A stretch of 64,000 nucleotides of DNA from Nitrospirota bacterium (GCA_040755395.1 JBFMAX010000004.1:186001-250000), one strand, 5' to 3'; counted from the stretch's first letter, positions 25,536 to 33,454 are shown. Notes: generated by a model from the sequence alone, not told the origin. Numbers and translations are program-made.

Positions 25536-26228
25536 ATGGTGCAACTGAATCGCCCCTTAAAAGCGGTCCTGTTTGATTTCGACGGGGTCTTGGCGGACAC
25601 GGAGCCCCTCCATTTCCGGATGTTCCAACGGGTGCTTGCAGATTCCGGCCTGACGCTTACCGCACCGGACTATGCCGCCCGCTACCTCGGTTTGACCGAC
25701 GAGGCCTGTTTTGTCGCCGTGTATGCCGCACAGGGCCTGTCCGTTTCAGAAGAACTCCTTGCTCAACTGGTCAGGCGCAAGACCGAGCTCATGCAAGACG
25801 CCCTGCGCGCCGATCCCGGGATCATGCCCGGCGTGACCGAGTTTGCGCGGAAGCTCTCGGGTCGCTACCGGCTTGCAGTGGTGTCCGGCGCGCTGCGGGA
25901 GGAAATCCGGCTGTGCCTGGAACAGGCCGGATTACTGGAGGCGTTCGAGCATATTACCGCGGCTCAGGATGTGAAAAACGGGAAGCCTGCCCCCGAGCCC
26001 TACCTGCACGCCCTCCGCCGGCTCGCTCGGACGGCGCCGCTGATCGGGTCCGAGTGTTTCGCGATCGAGGATAGCCTGCACGGGATCCGCGCTGCCCGGG
26101 CGGCCGGCATGCGATGTCTCGCCGTCGCGACGACTTACGCCCCGCAAGACCTGCATGCCGCAGACGCCGTCGTCTCTTCCCTGGAAGCCTGCGAGTTCGC
26201 CTCGCTCGTGCGCCGTCTGTGGGGATGA
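25536..26228 (+). CDS. HAD-superfamily hydrolase, beta-phosphoglucomutase-like
   Basis: 230 residues. Motif I DFDGVLADTEPLHF, motif II VVSGAL, motif III KPAPEP (Lys in NGKPAPE) and motif IV AIEDSLHGIRAA. This is the phosphatase/phosphomutase subgroup with a cap inserted after motif I, active on small sugar phosphates or similar; the substrate is not given by sequence. Stand-alone gene preceding a promoter and the 26.4-31.6 kb operon. Confidence 0.87.
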   Translation: MVQLNRPLKAVLFDFDGVLADTEPLHFRMFQRVLADSGLTLTAPDYAARYLGLTDEACFVAVYAAQGLSVSEELLAQLVRRKTELMQDALRADPGIMPGVTEFARKLSGRYRLAVVSGALREEIRLCLEQAGLLEAFEHITAAQDVKNGKPAPEPYLHALRRLARTAPLIGSECFAIEDSLHGIRAARAAGMRCLAVATTYAPQDLHAADAVVSSLEACEFASLVRRLWG

Positions 26229-26335: not shown

Positions 26336-26418
26336 GCGCTTAACAAGGGCCGGGTACGCTGAAGATGGCCCGGAGGTGCGCCGGATATCGCCGGGCGCGG
26401 AGTCCAGGGCCGGGATTC

Positions 26419-28839
26419 ATGTCGCACTTCGGATCCAACATCGCGCTTTCGGGTTCGCGGAGCCTCGATCCTTCCGCATTGAGCGTCGATCCCCGGTGCC
26501 TGCTGAAGGCTCTGGCTGGCGGCACCCTGCCGTTCTCTCCCTCTGACATCACGGCCGGCTCTGAAAACGAGCTGCAAGCCGCGGTGGAGGGGGCGCAGGA
26601 CCGTATCGACTTCGCCATCACCCTGCAAGAGTCGAACTACTGGAAGAACGTGGCGAAGCGGGCCGCGGCCGGCGACAGTCCCAGGACGCTGCTGACGAAC
26701 CTGGAGCGGTATCTCCGGGAGAATGCCCGTGCGGTCTGGGAAAATTCCTGGGTGCGGTTTCCACTCCGCGTCCTGAATCCGTTCGCCCTTCGGGTTTTGC
26801 AGCGGGATTTGGTGGCCGACAAGAGCAATGCCTTCAGCCCGCTGCGAAGCGACGTGTCCGCCTTTCTCTTTTCCCGCGAGGGCGACGACTGGCTCAGGGT
26901 GCCGATCAGCTACCTGCTCCGGCTGGCGTTGGCGCAGGCGATCGCGGATCAGCCGGCGTGGCCTCCGGCGGTCGCCGACATCGGCCGGCGGTGCATGGAT
27001 CATTTTCTCAACGACAACAGCTCGCCGGAGACCTACTCCTTCTACGTTGTGCCGCTGTCTCCCGAGACCGGCATGGGATGCGCCGTCGCCCGCGAAACCG
27101 CAAAGCGGTACCTGTTGACCCAGCTCCTCGTCCTGTATGCGAACGAGCGATTCGGACTCGCGCGATCGGGGCAGCGGGCTCGGGTGTATTTCGCGCCGCA
27201 TCCGCCCGTCCGGCAGAAGGAGCTGAACGCGCTCATCCCCGATGCGTTCTATCGCGAGCTGTTCATGAATCCCTGCCTGTTCGGATGGGATCGGGGCGAA
27301 GACAAACGCCGGTACATGCACCTGTGCCATCAGGTCCTGTCGCGCAGCCAGCTCAACGCGGTGATCAAGCTCAAGGACGCCGGCATCGTCACCCGCAACC
27401 TCGTGGTGCTGCCGAGCGCCTCGAACATCAGCCTCGCCAACAACGGCACCCATCTCAGTCTGGGAAGCCGCCTCCTCACCGAGGCGCTCGCGTCGGGCGC
27501 GTCGCCGTTCGACGCGTCGCACGAGAAATATCTCGGCGACCTGACGATCAAAATCGTGGAGCATTTCCTGCCCCTCTTCGTCGGGACCTACAGCGCGGCG
27601 CCGTATCGGTTGGATTTCTGGGATTGTCATCCGGAACGGGCGTTGGGCTTTCTTCCGCATGAACTGGACGGCGCGCACCTTCGGATGCTGTGGCGGCGAT
27701 GGAAGAAGAAAGCCGGGTTGACGGTTTTCGGCCGGCCGGTGACGCCGGTCGGCCCGCTGTGGCTGGATCGGGCGATCAGTCTGCTGTTCGGGCTCAGAGG
27801 CGATTTCGTGCCAGACTTCCGGCTGATCGATTATCTGGTCTCGCTGCTCAGCACCGACCAGAGCCCGGCGCTGGACGGCACGCCCGGCAACGAGCAGCGG
27901 CTCAAACGCGATTTGGCGCAACTGGGGATCTTCGACGAGTCCATGTCGCTGTATCTGCTCTATAAACTGCGCGCCCATGCGGTCATGGGCTTCTCGGGAT
28001 TCGAAGGGCGTCAGTACAGCCTGTTCGAGAGCCTGCGCGACGATCTGTCCGACGCGGCGAGCCTGCAGGCCCTGCTGACCGGGCTCGCCTTCCGATACAT
28101 CGCCGACGGAACGGTGAGCCACGAGGACATTCCCGATACGCCGTTCGTCGAGAGCGAGCGGCGACAATTCATCTTCGCGACGGCCATCGGCATCCCGACC
28201 TGCAACGTGCGGGAGGACACGGCGAATCGGTTCATGCTGCGGATTCTGTCGAACACCCGCAAGACCCGCGGCAGCCGCCGCTATGCCGGCTGTCTCCGAG
28301 TGCGGCTCGCCGACTACCGTCAGGCCCTGGTGGCGACCATCGAGGCAGACGCGCCGGACCTCGTTCGCGACTTCGGCTTGCAGGACGCCCTCGCCCGCCT
28401 GCGCGAGCGGTTGGCTGATCCCGAACGGGCGACCGTCGCCGGAAAGCTGACGTCGGGCATTCTCCGCGAAGCCGGCGTCGCCTCTCCGCTGCGGTTGCCC
28501 GGGCGCGAGTTCAACCTGGCCGCCGAACACTACTATCGCGGGACCCTCAAGATTCGCCATCTCAGGGAAGCGTTCGCAATCGTCGCAGACGATCTCCGGC
28601 GGATCGATGCGGCGGAGGAACCCTATCGCCGGGCGATCGCGAGCGTCATCGGGCCGCGCAGCGCGGCCGATTTTTTCGCGTCGGTCAAGGAGGCGCTGGT
28701 CGGGGAGGAGCTCGACGCCGACGGGCTTCGCCGATGCCTCGCCCTCGTCCTGTTGGTGATCCGGCGCGACATGGAAGAGGCCGGGACGCTCCGGCCCGGA
28801 TCGCGACATGCCGAACACGACCGAGCACCAGTACGTTGA
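26419..28839 (+). CDS. Large protein of unknown function, first gene of a lipid-enzyme-like operon
   Basis: About 806 residues from ATG 26419 (ATG 26365 also in frame but its extra residues look non-coding). Composition is that of a soluble mixed alpha/beta protein with no signal peptide or membrane segment. Recognisable only as conserved-looking blocks: NNGTHLSLGSRLLTEAL near 350, HPERALGFLPHELDGAHLRM near 415 and a positively charged stretch WRRWKKKAGL. I do not recognise the family. It overlaps the next gene (decarboxylase-like) by 32 nt, so its product likely works with it. A long opposite-strand ORF here was rejected on composition. Confidence 0.75.
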   Translation: MSHFGSNIALSGSRSLDPSALSVDPRCLLKALAGGTLPFSPSDITAGSENELQAAVEGAQDRIDFAITLQESNYWKNVAKRAAAGDSPRTLLTNLERYLRENARAVWENSWVRFPLRVLNPFALRVLQRDLVADKSNAFSPLRSDVSAFLFSREGDDWLRVPISYLLRLALAQAIADQPAWPPAVADIGRRCMDHFLNDNSSPETYSFYVVPLSPETGMGCAVARETAKRYLLTQLLVLYANERFGLARSGQRARVYFAPHPPVRQKELNALIPDAFYRELFMNPCLFGWDRGEDKRRYMHLCHQVLSRSQLNAVIKLKDAGIVTRNLVVLPSASNISLANNGTHLSLGSRLLTEALASGASPFDASHEKYLGDLTIKIVEHFLPLFVGTYSAAPYRLDFWDCHPERALGFLPHELDGAHLRMLWRRWKKKAGLTVFGRPVTPVGPLWLDRAISLLFGLRGDFVPDFRLIDYLVSLLSTDQSPALDGTPGNEQRLKRDLAQLGIFDESMSLYLLYKLRAHAVMGFSGFEGRQYSLFESLRDDLSDAASLQALLTGLAFRYIADGTVSHEDIPDTPFVESERRQFIFATAIGIPTCNVREDTANRFMLRILSNTRKTRGSRRYAGCLRVRLADYRQALVATIEADAPDLVRDFGLQDALARLRERLADPERATVAGKLTSGILREAGVASPLRLPGREFNLAAEHYYRGTLKIRHLREAFAIVADDLRRIDAAEEPYRRAIASVIGPRSAADFFASVKEALVGEELDADGLRRCLALVLLVIRRDMEEAGTLRPGSRHAEHDRAPVR

Positions 28840-29866
28840 TCGCGCGACCGCCCAAGTGCGGACCGAGCGGCTGTACGCGGATCGTCTGGTGCGTTGGCTG
28901 TACGCCCAGCCCTGGGAAGACGCCGCGTGGCTCTTCAGGGCGTTGACGTCGGCCAGGACATCGAGAGCGCTCGGCTTTTTCAATTACGATCTGCCGTTCG
29001 GCTCCGCGCGGTGGGGCGTAGAACGGTTCATCCGCTCGCTCGGGGTGGATTTGGCGGAATGCGTGGACCCTCCCGGGCGGCTCGACACGCCCAGGAAAGT
29101 GTTCCAGCGCAAGGTGCGGTACTGGGACGTGCGCCCGATGGAGGACGATCCGAGCGCCGTCGTCTCTCCGGCGGACGCCCGCGTGTTGGTCGGTTCGATG
29201 GAGGAACGCTCGGCGCTGTTCCTCAAAGGCAAGTTTTTCGAATTCGAGGAACTGCTGGGGTCCGATCGGGCCCGCTGGATACAGGCTTTCCGGAAGGGCG
29301 ACGTCGCCGTCTTCCGGCTCACGCCGGACAAGTATCATTACAACCATGCGCCTGTCGCCGGAACCGTCGCGGACTTCTACGCCGTCGCCGGACGCTACCA
29401 TTCCTGCAATCCGTCGCCCGTGGTGGCGCTCGCGACGCCGTATTCCAAGAACGCGCGGGTCGTGACGATCGTGGACAGCGACGTGCCCGGCGGCACCGGG
29501 GTCGGGCTGGTCGCGATGATCGAGATCGCGGCCCTCATGGTCGGGGTCATCGATCAGTGTTACAGCGACACCGGCTACGATCATCCGCGGCCCATGGCGA
29601 CGGGCCTGTTCTTGCGAAAAGGCCAACCCAAGAGTCTGTACCGTCCCGGGAGCTCGACGACCGTGCTCCTGTTTCAGCCCGGACGCGTCAGGTTCTGCGA
29701 CGACTTGATTCGGAACAGGTTCCGCCCCGGCGTCCGCAGCCGGTATTCGCAGGGATTCGGGCGGCCGCTGGTCGAGACGGATGTGAAAGTGCGCTCGACG
29801 ATCGCCCGCGCGCGCCGGAGCGCGTCGGCGGACATTCGAGCGGAGGCGTCGCGCGATGGCGAATGA
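28808..29866 (+). CDS. Phosphatidylserine decarboxylase-like enzyme (pyruvoyl type)
   Basis: 352 residues. Conserved PSD landmarks: SPADARVL (Asp of the triad) at about 118, KYHYNHAPVAGTVADFY (His) at about 177, DSDVPGGTGVGLVAMIEIAALMVG, and near the C-terminus RPGSSTTVLLFQPGRVRF. The GSS there replaces the usual LGST as the self-cleavage site that yields the pyruvoyl group. So the catalytic Asp-His-Ser set seems present and the protein probably decarboxylates a serine-headed or related lipid. The long N-terminus is unlike bacterial Psd. It overlaps both neighbours. Confidence 0.82.
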   Translation: MPNTTEHQYVDRATAQVRTERLYADRLVRWLYAQPWEDAAWLFRALTSARTSRALGFFNYDLPFGSARWGVERFIRSLGVDLAECVDPPGRLDTPRKVFQRKVRYWDVRPMEDDPSAVVSPADARVLVGSMEERSALFLKGKFFEFEELLGSDRARWIQAFRKGDVAVFRLTPDKYHYNHAPVAGTVADFYAVAGRYHSCNPSPVVALATPYSKNARVVTIVDSDVPGGTGVGLVAMIEIAALMVGVIDQCYSDTGYDHPRPMATGLFLRKGQPKSLYRPGSSTTVLLFQPGRVRFCDDLIRNRFRPGVRSRYSQGFGRPLVETDVKVRSTIARARRSASADIRAEASRDGE

Positions 29867-30908
29867 GATCGCTCTCCTGAGTCTGTTTTTCGTGTACACG
29901 CTCCTCTTCCGGTGGGCGTTTCGGACCCTGCCGCGGGAGGAGTGGCAGATTCTCGCGGCGATCCCCACGCAGAAGGGTCCCGACGGCCGGTGGGAGGGAC
30001 TCAACCTGACGTATTACGGCGTGTTGACCGCGAGCGCGGTCACGCTGGCGGTGGCCGTGCTGATCGTGCTGATGGGCGCGCTCGCGGTCCCGCTGATCGC
30101 CACGGCGAGTCTGGCGGCCCTCACGCTCGCGTTGTGCGTGCCCGCTGCGAAGCTCCTGGCGAGGCTGGTCGAAGACAGGCCGAACACCTTCACGATCGGA
30201 GGGGCGTCGTTTGTCGGGTTGCTCGCTGCGCCGTGGCTGATCCTGCTGACCAACGAGACGCTGGGAGAAGGGGCGGACGGCGCAATCCCGATGCTCCCGA
30301 CGCTGGCCGCGCTGGCGATCGCCTACGCCTTCGGAGAGGGGACCGGTCGGCTTGCCTGCATCAGCTTCGGCTGTTGCTACGGCAAGCCGTTGAGCGCCGC
30401 TCATCCGGCGTTGGCCGGGCTGTTTCGGATGCGCCACTTCGCCTTCGCCGGGCCGACAAAGAAAGCGGCGTATGAGGGAGGATTGGAATCGGCGCCCGTG
30501 ATTCCCGTTCAGGCCGTGACCGCCGTGATTTCTACGGGCGCCGGCCTGGTCGGCCTGTCGTTGTTTCTCCACGGCCGCATGCAGGCGGCGTTTTTGACCG
30601 CCTTGCTGATCACGCACGCATGGCGGGTGCTCTCCGAGCGGTTGAGAGCGGACCATCGGGGCGGCGGCGACCTGTCCGTCTATCAGGTGCTGGCCGCGCT
30701 CGGCTCACTTTACGGACTCGTCCTGAGCGTCTCGCCGACGGACGAACGGCCCGTGAGGCCGGACCTGCTCGCCGGGCTCGAAGCCCTGTGGAACCCCCTG
30801 GTCATCCTTTCGCTGCAGGCCGTGTGGGTCGCGATCTTTCTCTACACCGGGCGCAGTCAGGTGACGGCGTCCACGATTTCCCTCTCCGTCCTCAAGGATC
30901 GCGTGTGA
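29856..30908 (+). CDS. Lgt-like (prolipoprotein diacylglyceryl transferase-related) membrane protein
   Basis: 350 residues with about eight membrane segments. It aligns by eye with Lgt: LNLTYYGVL (Lgt's IRWYGL region), the GRLACISFGCCYGKP block (Lgt's signature with Arg), and RVLSERLRADHRGGG before LSVYQ. However, the segment matching Lgt's HGG loop reads IGGASFVGLLAA, with no His at the position important in E. coli Lgt. Thus a changed or different acyl/phosphatidyl transfer activity is likely. Its start overlaps the decarboxylase stop by 11 nt. Confidence 0.75.
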   Translation: MANEIALLSLFFVYTLLFRWAFRTLPREEWQILAAIPTQKGPDGRWEGLNLTYYGVLTASAVTLAVAVLIVLMGALAVPLIATASLAALTLALCVPAAKLLARLVEDRPNTFTIGGASFVGLLAAPWLILLTNETLGEGADGAIPMLPTLAALAIAYAFGEGTGRLACISFGCCYGKPLSAAHPALAGLFRMRHFAFAGPTKKAAYEGGLESAPVIPVQAVTAVISTGAGLVGLSLFLHGRMQAAFLTALLITHAWRVLSERLRADHRGGGDLSVYQVLAALGSLYGLVLSVSPTDERPVRPDLLAGLEALWNPLVILSLQAVWVAIFLYTGRSQVTASTISLSVLKDRV

Positions 30909-31648
30909 GGCGCCCGCGGCCTTCGGCATCGCGGTGGCCTGCGGCCCTCCTGCTGGGCCTGGCCGTGCTGTCGGCCGCGGGATCGGCGTCCGCGCAACGC
31001 GATGCGATTCCTTCGGATTACCCGCACTCGCTCATGCGCGACCTGGCCGCCCTGTTAGCGGCGCTGGATCGCGATCCCTCCGACGTCGGCCTCCTGACCC
31101 GCTTGGCCGATCTCTATCTCAACATCGCGGATGACTTGTACACGGACGCCCAAGACCGGCTGGCGGCGTACGAAGAAGGCGCCAGAACCGCCGAACGCGC
31201 GATCGAGCTCCGGGAGGCGAACGCGGACGCCCATTTTCTTTACGCCGCCGCCCTCGGCAGCGCGGCGCGGTTGCAAGGCCCGGCCTCGGCGGCGCTCGTC
31301 CTCCGGAACGTCAAACGTCACGTCGCACGGGCGATCGAGCTGCGGCCCGATCATGCGCCGGCGCTGCAGATGATGGGCGGGCTGCTGGCGGAGTTGCCCC
31401 GGTTTCTGGGAGGCGATCCGGAGGCGGCGGAGCGCTATCTCATGCGGGCCATCGCCGCGGACGGGGACTACACCAACGCGCGGATCCTTCTGGCCAAGCT
31501 CTATCTCAAGCAGGGGCGAGTCGACGCCGCCCGCCTGCAACTGCGCGCGGTCGTCGGCGCCGCGCGTCCGCATTATCCGTATGCCTGGGCGCGCAGGTTC
31601 AAGCCGGAGGCGGAGCGGCTCCTGAAGTCGCTGGACGAACGGGAGTGA
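30905..31648 (+). CDS. Exported TPR-repeat protein
   Basis: 247 residues. The GTG at 30905 overlaps the Lgt-like stop (GTGA). Signal peptide ends SASAQRD. Tandem TPR-like helices follow, including ADLYLNIADDLY, HARAIELRPDHAPALQMMGG and ELPRFLGGDPEAAERYLMRA, the last resembling TRAP-associated TatT and related periplasmic TPR proteins. It may bind the products or partners of the lipid enzymes upstream. Last gene of the four-gene operon. Confidence 0.75.
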   Translation: MRRPRPSASRWPAALLLGLAVLSAAGSASAQRDAIPSDYPHSLMRDLAALLAALDRDPSDVGLLTRLADLYLNIADDLYTDAQDRLAAYEEGARTAERAIELREANADAHFLYAAALGSAARLQGPASAALVLRNVKRHVARAIELRPDHAPALQMMGGLLAELPRFLGGDPEAAERYLMRAIAADGDYTNARILLAKLYLKQGRVDAARLQLRAVVGAARPHYPYAWARRFKPEAERLLKSLDERE

Positions 31649-31942: not shown

Positions 31943-33454
31943 ATGAGGTTGAAGCAACGATCGGGACTCGTTCTTTCCCTGGGCATGCTCGGTCTCGCGG
32001 CCCTGCTCCCGTTGCAGCGCGTGCAGGCCGACGACGGCTTCGAGGGGCTCCAGGATTTCGGCCAGCAGGTGCAGCGATCGCTCGAACAGCGATCGTTCCT
32101 GCTCTTCGGGGTCCACAAGCCGTTGAAGGAATCGGCTCCGCCGACCACCGGCGACTATCGGATGCCGGACCAGAAGGCTCAGGACCAGATCGTCCTGGCC
32201 AAGAGCCTCAAGGCCGAGTACGTGACCCGGCAGGCGGCCCACAACGCCGACCAGTTTGCATTCTGGCCGTCGGACGAACAGCCGACCCATTTGCTTTTTT
32301 GCATCGAAGAATTCACGCCCCACAAGATCGGGGAATATCCCAGCGGCGTGCCCAAGTTGACCCCGGGTGTGCAGCGGATCCGCCTGAGCGACGGGGCCGT
32401 GGACACCATCTTGCGCGGGACTGCCGGTTGCGACGGCATTCGTCGCACGCCTTGGGGCACTATCCTGGCTACGGAAGAAGTGGATGACGGCGCCGCCTAT
32501 GAAATCATGGACCCGCTGGACGTGACGAACCTGACCGTGATCAATCGCGCGACGGGCGCCGTGATCGACGTCAACGGCGTGCCGTCCGCCAAGGTCGTGA
32601 AGCGGACAGCTCTGCCGACCTTGGCTTGGGAAGGCATCGGCATCCTGCCGAACGGCGTGGTGTACTTGGGCGACGAGGAGCGTCCCGGGTCCGCGGCGCC
32701 GGATTCAGACGGCGGCGCCATCTACAAATTCATCCCGGCAAATCCGCGGACGGAGAGCGGTCCGATTTCCGCGCTCGCGCAATCCCCGTTGGCTGCCGGT
32801 AACGTGTATGCGATGCAGGTGTCCTGTCGGACCGGCCGGCAGCAGTACGGCCAGGGGTGCGAAGTCGGACACGTGGCGTGGATTCCGGTGAGCGCCGCCG
32901 ATGCCCGCAGCGATGCCCACAAGGCGGGCGCGACGGGTTACTATCGGCCGGAGGATATGGAGCTGGATCCGCAGTATGAGGGGGAGGGCGTTCGGTTCTG
33001 TTGGGCTGCGACCGGAAGCGCCGGCAGCGGACAATACGCCGAAGTCGCCTGCGCGGTGGACCGCGCGCCGCTCACGGCCGACCCTCGCCAACAGACGGTC
33101 CTGGTCGAGCGCTTCATCGAAGGCGATCAGGACTTCAATCAATTCGACAATCTCGAGTTCCAGCCGAAGACAGGCAATCTCTACGTCATCGAGGACAATG
33201 ACAACGGCGATATTTTCGCGTGCTTGCCGGACGGCGACGACCGCGACATCAAGTCGGACGGCTGCGTTAAGATTCTCTCGGTCAAGGATTCATCCGCGGA
33301 GCCGACCGGGTTCAAGTTTGCGCTTGACGGAACCACGGCCTACCTGTCCATCCAGCATAGCAGCGACGGCAAGATGCCGAAGGTCGACGACTACCCGACC
33401 GACGACATCCTCAAAATCACCGGGTTCCAGATCCCGCCGCATTTCAGGCGCTAG
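31943..33454 (+). CDS. PhoX-like (DUF839) exported protein
   Basis: 503 residues with AGGAGG before the ATG at 31943. Signal peptide ends RVQADDG. The mature beta-propeller carries DUF839/PhoX-type blocks: ATEEV, AWEGIGILPNGVVYLGDEE, YRPEDMEL, NQFDNLEFQPKTGNLYVIEDNDNGD. PhoX proteins are Ca2+/Fe-dependent alkaline phosphatases; several putative metal acidic residues are present, but the TAT signal usual for PhoX is absent, so the role is uncertain. Confidence 0.78.
   Translation: MRLKQRSGLVLSLGMLGLAALLPLQRVQADDGFEGLQDFGQQVQRSLEQRSFLLFGVHKPLKESAPPTTGDYRMPDQKAQDQIVLAKSLKAEYVTRQAAHNADQFAFWPSDEQPTHLLFCIEEFTPHKIGEYPSGVPKLTPGVQRIRLSDGAVDTILRGTAGCDGIRRTPWGTILATEEVDDGAAYEIMDPLDVTNLTVINRATGAVIDVNGVPSAKVVKRTALPTLAWEGIGILPNGVVYLGDEERPGSAAPDSDGGAIYKFIPANPRTESGPISALAQSPLAAGNVYAMQVSCRTGRQQYGQGCEVGHVAWIPVSAADARSDAHKAGATGYYRPEDMELDPQYEGEGVRFCWAATGSAGSGQYAEVACAVDRAPLTADPRQQTVLVERFIEGDQDFNQFDNLEFQPKTGNLYVIEDNDNGDIFACLPDGDDRDIKSDGCVKILSVKDSSAEPTGFKFALDGTTAYLSIQHSSDGKMPKVDDYPTDDILKITGFQIPPHFRR

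Follow-up and report, generated by a model that had tools for sequence, protein, structure and literature searches.

A conserved gene cassette for a predicted ligase, a PSD-type enzyme and an Lgt-like membrane protein suggests a dedicated lipid pathway in Nitrospirota and Desulfobacterota

A tightly coupled operon in a Nitrospirota genome

What would a soluble protein of no annotated family, a PSD-type pyruvoyl enzyme, an Lgt-like membrane protein and an exported TPR protein do together? This question is raised by four tandem genes on the plus strand at positions 26419-31648 of the window, by which we mean the whole 64,000-nucleotide stretch analysed here (Nitrospirota bacterium, GCA_040755395.1, JBFMAX010000004.1:186001-250000). 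The source genome (4.1 Mb, 74 contigs) is 100% complete, and the nearest relatives of the block are those of Nitrospira. The four genes and their upstream neighbour are as follows:

25536-26228, plus strand: HAD-type phosphatase gene (PF13419), upstream neighbour, not part of the core
26419-28839, plus strand: gene 1, ligase-like protein of 806 aa, a new family of the glutamate-cysteine ligase (GCL) superfamily and, as judged from its modelled fold, a predicted ATP-dependent carboxylate-amine ligase
28808-29866, plus strand: gene 2, PSD-type pyruvoyl enzyme of 352 aa (PF02666, E 3.2e-36), overlapping gene 1 by 32 nt
29856-30908, plus strand: gene 3, Lgt-like polytopic membrane protein of 350 aa (PF01790, 36 bits), overlapping gene 2 by 11 nt
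30905-31648, plus strand: exported TPR protein of 247 aa with a GTG start, TPR family matches and a signal peptide identified by eye, overlapping gene 3 by 4 nt

The coordinates and overlaps reported for these genes in the preliminary description were right, and the tight coupling of the first two genes is general: in most homologous loci the PSD gene either overlaps the ligase gene or is separated from it by no more than about 25 nt. Note that an alternative in-frame ATG at 26365 would give a gene 1 product of 824 aa, and that conservation of this product begins near residue 38.

Gene 1 encodes a predicted ligase of the GCL superfamily

The 806-aa protein is soluble and carries no signal peptide. 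It had been taken for a featureless unknown; neither Pfam nor NCBIfam has a family that matches it, and searches of the PDB sequences with phmmer and with a profile returned nothing significant. Its predicted structure, which places the fold in the GCL superfamily, changes this picture. The AlphaFold2 model, built on a 46-sequence alignment (pLDDT 89.5, pTM 0.92), aligned in VIA-align with the best 14 entries of this superfamily (GshA, GshAB, YbdK/GCS2 of PF04107, PafA/Dop of PF03136) with Z scores of 14 to 16 over approximately 340-420 residues, and the next unrelated fold reached only 3.4. The individual scores were 15.8 for the bifunctional GshAB, 15.4 and 15.1 for YbdK-type proteins, 14.9 for E. 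coli GshA, 14.2 for Dop, 14.1 for PafA, 9.8 for the yeast GCL and 6.0 for a type III glutamine synthetase. Foldseek gave weak matches only (E 0.28), the top seven of which were glutamate-cysteine ligases and PafA.

The landmarks of the GCL metal/ATP site, namely E-x-E, His and E-x-R, could be paired with residues of the gene 1 protein, the pairing being made by motif and not by superposed coordinates:

26551-26577, plus strand: TAGSENELQ motif with E49 and E51, corresponding to the first-strand G-x-E-x-E of GCL (TLGIELEMQ in YbdK)
27451-27453, plus strand: H345 in NNGTHISLG, corresponding to the GCL histidine in GQHVHVG or GVHYNFS
28003-28011, plus strand: E529-G-R531 in GFEGRHYSLF, corresponding to the GCL E-x-R (GTVEVRVMD or YIEVRSLD)

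None of E49, E51, H345, E529 and R531 varies among the 46 homologues. The motifs are collinear with those of YbdK and of the YbdK relatives found in Nitrospirota (TAGSENELQ with TLGIELEMQ, NNGTHLSLG with GQHVHVGC, HFLPLFVGTYSAAPY with RFVPHFIALSAASPY, and GFEGRQYSLF with GTVEVRVMD), and the order seen in YbdK and GshA, with an E-x-E first strand, a later His, an FLPLF..SAAPY helix and an E-x-R strand, is the same. In contrast to the known members of the superfamily, the gene 1 protein has its own conserved DN(T/S)SPET and ESERRQ motifs, lacks a significant sequence-profile match to them, shows a second-strand acidic pair that is only partly recognisable (WENSW for E-S-M-L-E) and is about 300 residues longer than GshA.

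Since the profile-profile similarity between the ligase and GCL falls below significance (hhalign probability of 3% for the best stretch), placement of gene 1 in the superfamily, which the model makes well supported, rests on the fold and on the order of the motifs. The best hhalign stretch scored 28.9, and none of 60 block shuffles exceeded 28.8; four stretches were collinear and the top three were so in 1 of the 60 shuffles, all of these scores being sub-significant. The ligase profile gave no collinear match to the Nitrospirota Pup ligases (PF03136). By analogy with the superfamily, we infer that the activity would be an ATP-dependent, amide-forming ligation; this is not certain, since proteins of the GCL fold include Dop, a depupylase. 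Proteins 42-62% identical to the window's copy over nearly the full length occur across several phyla and are unannotated. Within the region of the ligase that forms an insert, three further residues, Cys286, Cys303 and His304, are invariant and possibly make up a metal site.

Gene 2 encodes a PSD-type pyruvoyl enzyme

The product of gene 2 matched PF02666 with 125 bits (cut-off 22) but stayed under the NCBIfam equivalog cut-offs (129 vs 371 bits for NF001941; 82 vs 112 for TIGR00163) and was therefore filed as a PSD-type paralogue, not as a PSD equivalog. The Asp/His/Ser set for pyruvoyl chemistry, reported at first inspection, is intact, and D123, H177, H180 and S283 are invariant in 40 homologues. 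The N-terminus, in contrast, had been called unusual but is not: the NF001941 model aligns from residue 8. The self-cleavage site is located as follows:

29651-29656, plus strand: S282-S283 of the PGSST self-cleavage motif, with S283 present in 40 of 40 sequences and S282 in 39 of 40

The single departure is a PSD that carries PGGST instead of PGSST. S283 is the likely precursor of the pyruvoyl group when counted back from a conserved LF, although one automatic alignment puts S282 at this position.

Compared with PSDs of the NF001941/PRK00723 type, the protein shares the whole domain, the catalytic D/H/H, the pyruvoyl Ser and the phosphate-contact Ser. It differs in belonging to a clade of its own, in having PGSST and not LGST, in a Lys for D142, and in an invariant Cys200 and Pro202 in a CNP loop. 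It also differs at the phosphate-contacting Y137 of E. coli PSD, whose position is occupied by R170; an Arg is found there in approximately 15% of PSDs (PMC7952604). The other phosphate contact, S166, is kept in most module PSDs. R170 and the retained S166 thus suggest a substrate with a phosphorylated headgroup, phosphatidylserine or a relative being the simplest guess. That the enzyme would act as a decarboxylase we infer from its family membership.

A third PSD-family protein was seen in Desulfogranum mediterraneum (L182, 3040-4494). It has a GGST motif and, by eye, an N-terminal signal peptide, and is apparently exported, an unusual location for a PSD.

Gene 3 encodes an Lgt-like protein with an altered active site

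The Lgt-like protein scored 36 bits against PF01790 (gathering score 24.9), which is matched by 42 of the 44 family members, and 14.5 bits against the NCBIfam Lgt equivalog, whose cut-off is 334. Its AlphaFold2 model (pLDDT 93.7) matched E. coli Lgt (5azb) with a Z score of 12.9, the next chain reaching 5.4. Two sites distinguish it:

30213-30215, plus strand: V120, which corresponds to H103 of E. coli Lgt; V, C, L, I, T or F across the 44 family members
30345-30386, plus strand: GRLACISFGCCYGK block, invariant in 44 sequences, in which R165 (R143 in E. coli) is kept, C168 stands for N146 and C173 for E151

It had been proposed that this protein keeps the block but lacks the His of the HGG loop; both points were borne out, and the loss of the His holds for the whole family. 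Y54, R165 and R257, the equivalents of E. coli Y26, R143 and R239, are invariant, the two Arg being those of the phospholipid site, and so are the counterparts of G154, E243 and R246. In the E. coli numbering, D129 is mostly Ala and Y235 mostly Thr or Ser. An extra C-terminal segment and a separate clade further set the family apart from Lgt.

In E. coli Lgt, Y26, H103, R143, N146, G154 and R239 are absolutely required; however, some Lgt proteins carry Tyr, Trp or Phe in place of H103, and Cys replaces N146 in distant members (PMC13251419). The Lgt variants of Leptospira and of the MSMEG_5408 type likewise have a Cys at the N146 place (PMC13251419). Since the H103 place varies among Lgt proteins, loss of the His alone does not show a new reaction. 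Since the counterparts of both H103 and N146 are absent, the protein was not filed as a lipoprotein Lgt, and its transferase activity could be lost. Its family membership predicts a diacylglyceryl transferase with an altered active site, and the pattern of kept and replaced residues indicates that phospholipid binding has probably been retained while the acceptor or the catalytic base has changed.

The module enzymes are distinct from the housekeeping PSD and Lgt

One explanation of the locus is that the module PSD and the Lgt-like protein are ordinary isozymes, making PE and lipoproteins under other conditions, with an unrelated ligase that happens to share their operon. Both proteins exceed the Pfam cut-offs of known families and keep many catalytic residues, as this explanation would have it. 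However, they fall far short of the equivalog cut-offs, and H103 and N146 are lost in every Lgt-like member. Moreover, all 22 module genomes searched encode elsewhere another PSD, nearly always the short form, and another Lgt, both with higher scores, so that housekeeping copies of the two enzymes are separately present in each of them.

Phylogeny pointed in the same direction. In maximum-likelihood trees, the module PSDs lay on one side of a single branch, opposite the other copies and E. coli PSD, with support of 97/98; the Lgt-like proteins were likewise separated from the other copies and E. coli Lgt with support of 100/100, in a tree built without the Leptospira and MSMEG_5408-type N146C variants. 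The distance matrices of the three module proteins correlated (r of 0.87, 0.76 and 0.69, with 0 of 2000 permutations as high), as is expected of genes inherited together, part of the correlation reflecting shared species history. With two separate deep clades, and with three genes that travel and vanish together (see below), we consider the isozyme explanation unlikely.

A three-gene core is conserved across phyla

A scan of genome contigs recovered 64 relatives of the 806-aa protein, whose best segments are 43-66% identical to it. They come from Nitrospira, many Desulfobacterota, SAR324, Acidobacteriota (labelled Edaphobacter), Lentisphaeria, Kiritimatiellae and Deferribacteraceae bins. The conserved core consists of the ligase, PSD and Lgt-like genes, which keep this order and share a strand in almost all loci that extend far enough. 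Of 95 loci whose sequence continues for 600 nt or more downstream, 94 have the PSD gene next to the ligase gene, and of 53 that continue for 1.9 kb or more, 52 have the Lgt-like gene, these loci coming from the contig scan and from whole-genome searches and including a few in which the same genome is counted twice. In the PSD exception (L153), the PSD and Lgt-like genes are found 2.5 kb beyond the ligase gene, behind an insertion of three genes which by eye are DUF3047-like, methylglyoxal-synthase-like and CapA-like. Three unrelated genes, also named by eye, stand between ligase and PSD in L181 (6842-9157, genome G363), and encode a DUF3047-like exported protein, a methylglyoxal-synthase-like protein and, on the other strand, a CapA-like protein. 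In L042 (6766-8190) the C-terminus of the module PSD carries an additional hydrophobic stretch of some 120 residues, and no Lgt-like gene follows.

The preliminary description had a block of four genes, which lack of conservation would have refuted; the three-gene core is indeed conserved across phyla, but the fourth gene does not belong to it. A strong TPR homologue follows the block in Nitrospirota loci only, the TPR gene being an addition peculiar to that phylum.

Of 296 Nitrospirota genomes 14 carry the module, as do 32 of 297 from Desulfobacterota; this patchy distribution (about 5-11%) indicates an accessory trait. A scar in L183 (3579-4022, genome G204) joins the N-terminus of the ligase (approximately profile positions 15-100) directly to the C-terminal 50 residues of the Lgt-like protein, as if the cassette had been lost together by one deletion; downstream of it lies a frameshifted TPR gene. 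A mobile or defence role was considered for the patchy distribution and rejected: no module copies were found on plasmids or viral contigs, and none of the four proteins matched the anti-phage defence proteins of PADLOC.

A possible lipid-conjugation pathway

What, then, does the cassette make? The most likely answer is a dedicated lipid-headgroup or lipid-conjugation pathway. More precisely, we propose that the three enzymes of the cassette make a specialised product which contains an amide and is anchored by a lipid, and give this reading a probability of about one in two. The whole pathway would be located at the cytoplasmic membrane. The PSD-type enzyme would remove CO2 from a phospho-amino-acid headgroup, most simply that of phosphatidylserine or a close analogue, leaving a primary amine. 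The soluble ligase would then activate a carboxylate with ATP, by analogy the side-chain carboxyl of glutamate, and join it to an amine, most economically the one just produced. Finally, with phosphatidylglycerol or another anionic lipid of this kind as the donor, the Lgt-like enzyme would transfer diacylglyceryl to a membrane acceptor, finishing or anchoring the product. The substrates, the order of the steps and the idea that they are consecutive are guesses. Genes that share an operon need not act consecutively, and against consecutive action are the three unrelated genes inside the L181 block and the missing Lgt-like gene of L042.

The earlier suggestion of a lipid-headgroup or lipid-to-protein transfer pathway fits a conserved block that stands apart from the housekeeping PSD and Lgt, but the TPR protein drops out of its core. 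A more specific version is conceivable, although we advance it tentatively: the product might be an undescribed bacterial membrane lipid or lipid-anchored conjugate, namely an aminophospholipid (or thio/amino lipid) on whose headgroup amine the new GCL-superfamily ligase forms an amide, and to which an Lgt-like enzyme no longer acting on lipoproteins adds a diacylglyceryl group.

Alternatively, the cassette could serve a soluble metabolite. The ligase would form an amide, of the gamma-glutamyl or a similar kind, the PSD-type enzyme would decarboxylate a soluble amino acid, as do its PsiD-type relatives, and the Lgt-like protein would be a transporter or scaffold that has lost its transferase activity. 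The PSD fold does include decarboxylases of soluble substrates, with L-tryptophan decarboxylase entries among the PDB relatives, and the missing H103 is compatible with such a loss. However, the phosphate-contact positions of the PSD (S166, and Y137 replaced by Arg) are kept, the phospholipid-binding Arg pair of the Lgt-like protein is invariant, and E. coli PSD needs acyl chains (PMC7952604), which together make a soluble pathway improbable.

Least probable of all is a bacterial counterpart of Atg8-PE lipidation, in which the ligase, as a cousin of PafA and Dop, would join a protein carboxylate to the amine of PE from the module PSD and the Lgt-like protein would anchor this target or a related one. 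In its favour, the closest folds include two enzymes that act on glutamate linked to protein, Dop and PafA, the PSD would supply PE and Nitrospira has an exported TPR partner. However, GshAB and YbdK match the gene 1 fold equally well, the ORFs of at least 90 aa around the cassette include no conserved small modifier protein, and the TPR gene is absent outside the Nitrospirota.

We found no earlier description of the ligase, PSD and Lgt-like combination in the literature searched, whose coverage left out most subscription journals. Each enzyme belongs to a known superfamily, and what appears to be new here is the three-gene combination and the ligase family. The block suggests that nitrite oxidisers and sulfate reducers have a branch of lipid metabolism still to be mapped, for which Lgt- and PSD-type enzymes were apparently recruited away from their housekeeping roles. 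The cassette provides a concrete three-gene set for expression and testing.

Genes flanking the module

A search for flanking genes common to different lineages (ORFs of at least 90 aa) found none outside the Nitrospirota. A shared gene in the 916-nt gap of L041 was considered and rejected, since this gap holds a PEP-CTERM-type protein. The HAD-type phosphatase gene lies upstream, on the same strand, in approximately 15 Nitrospira loci, and accompanies the module in Nitrospira relatives only.

The source genome has four matches to the Pup-ligase family (PafA/Dop) in two places (contig C10:51898-56303 and contig C1:193364-194731). Most of the sampled genomes of the Nitrospira family likewise have four, perhaps representing two pupylation systems. 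Finally, a PhoX-like (PF05787) secreted protein is encoded just 3' of the operon, at 31943-33454 of the window, and a homologue of it lies upstream of the module in another locus (L187).
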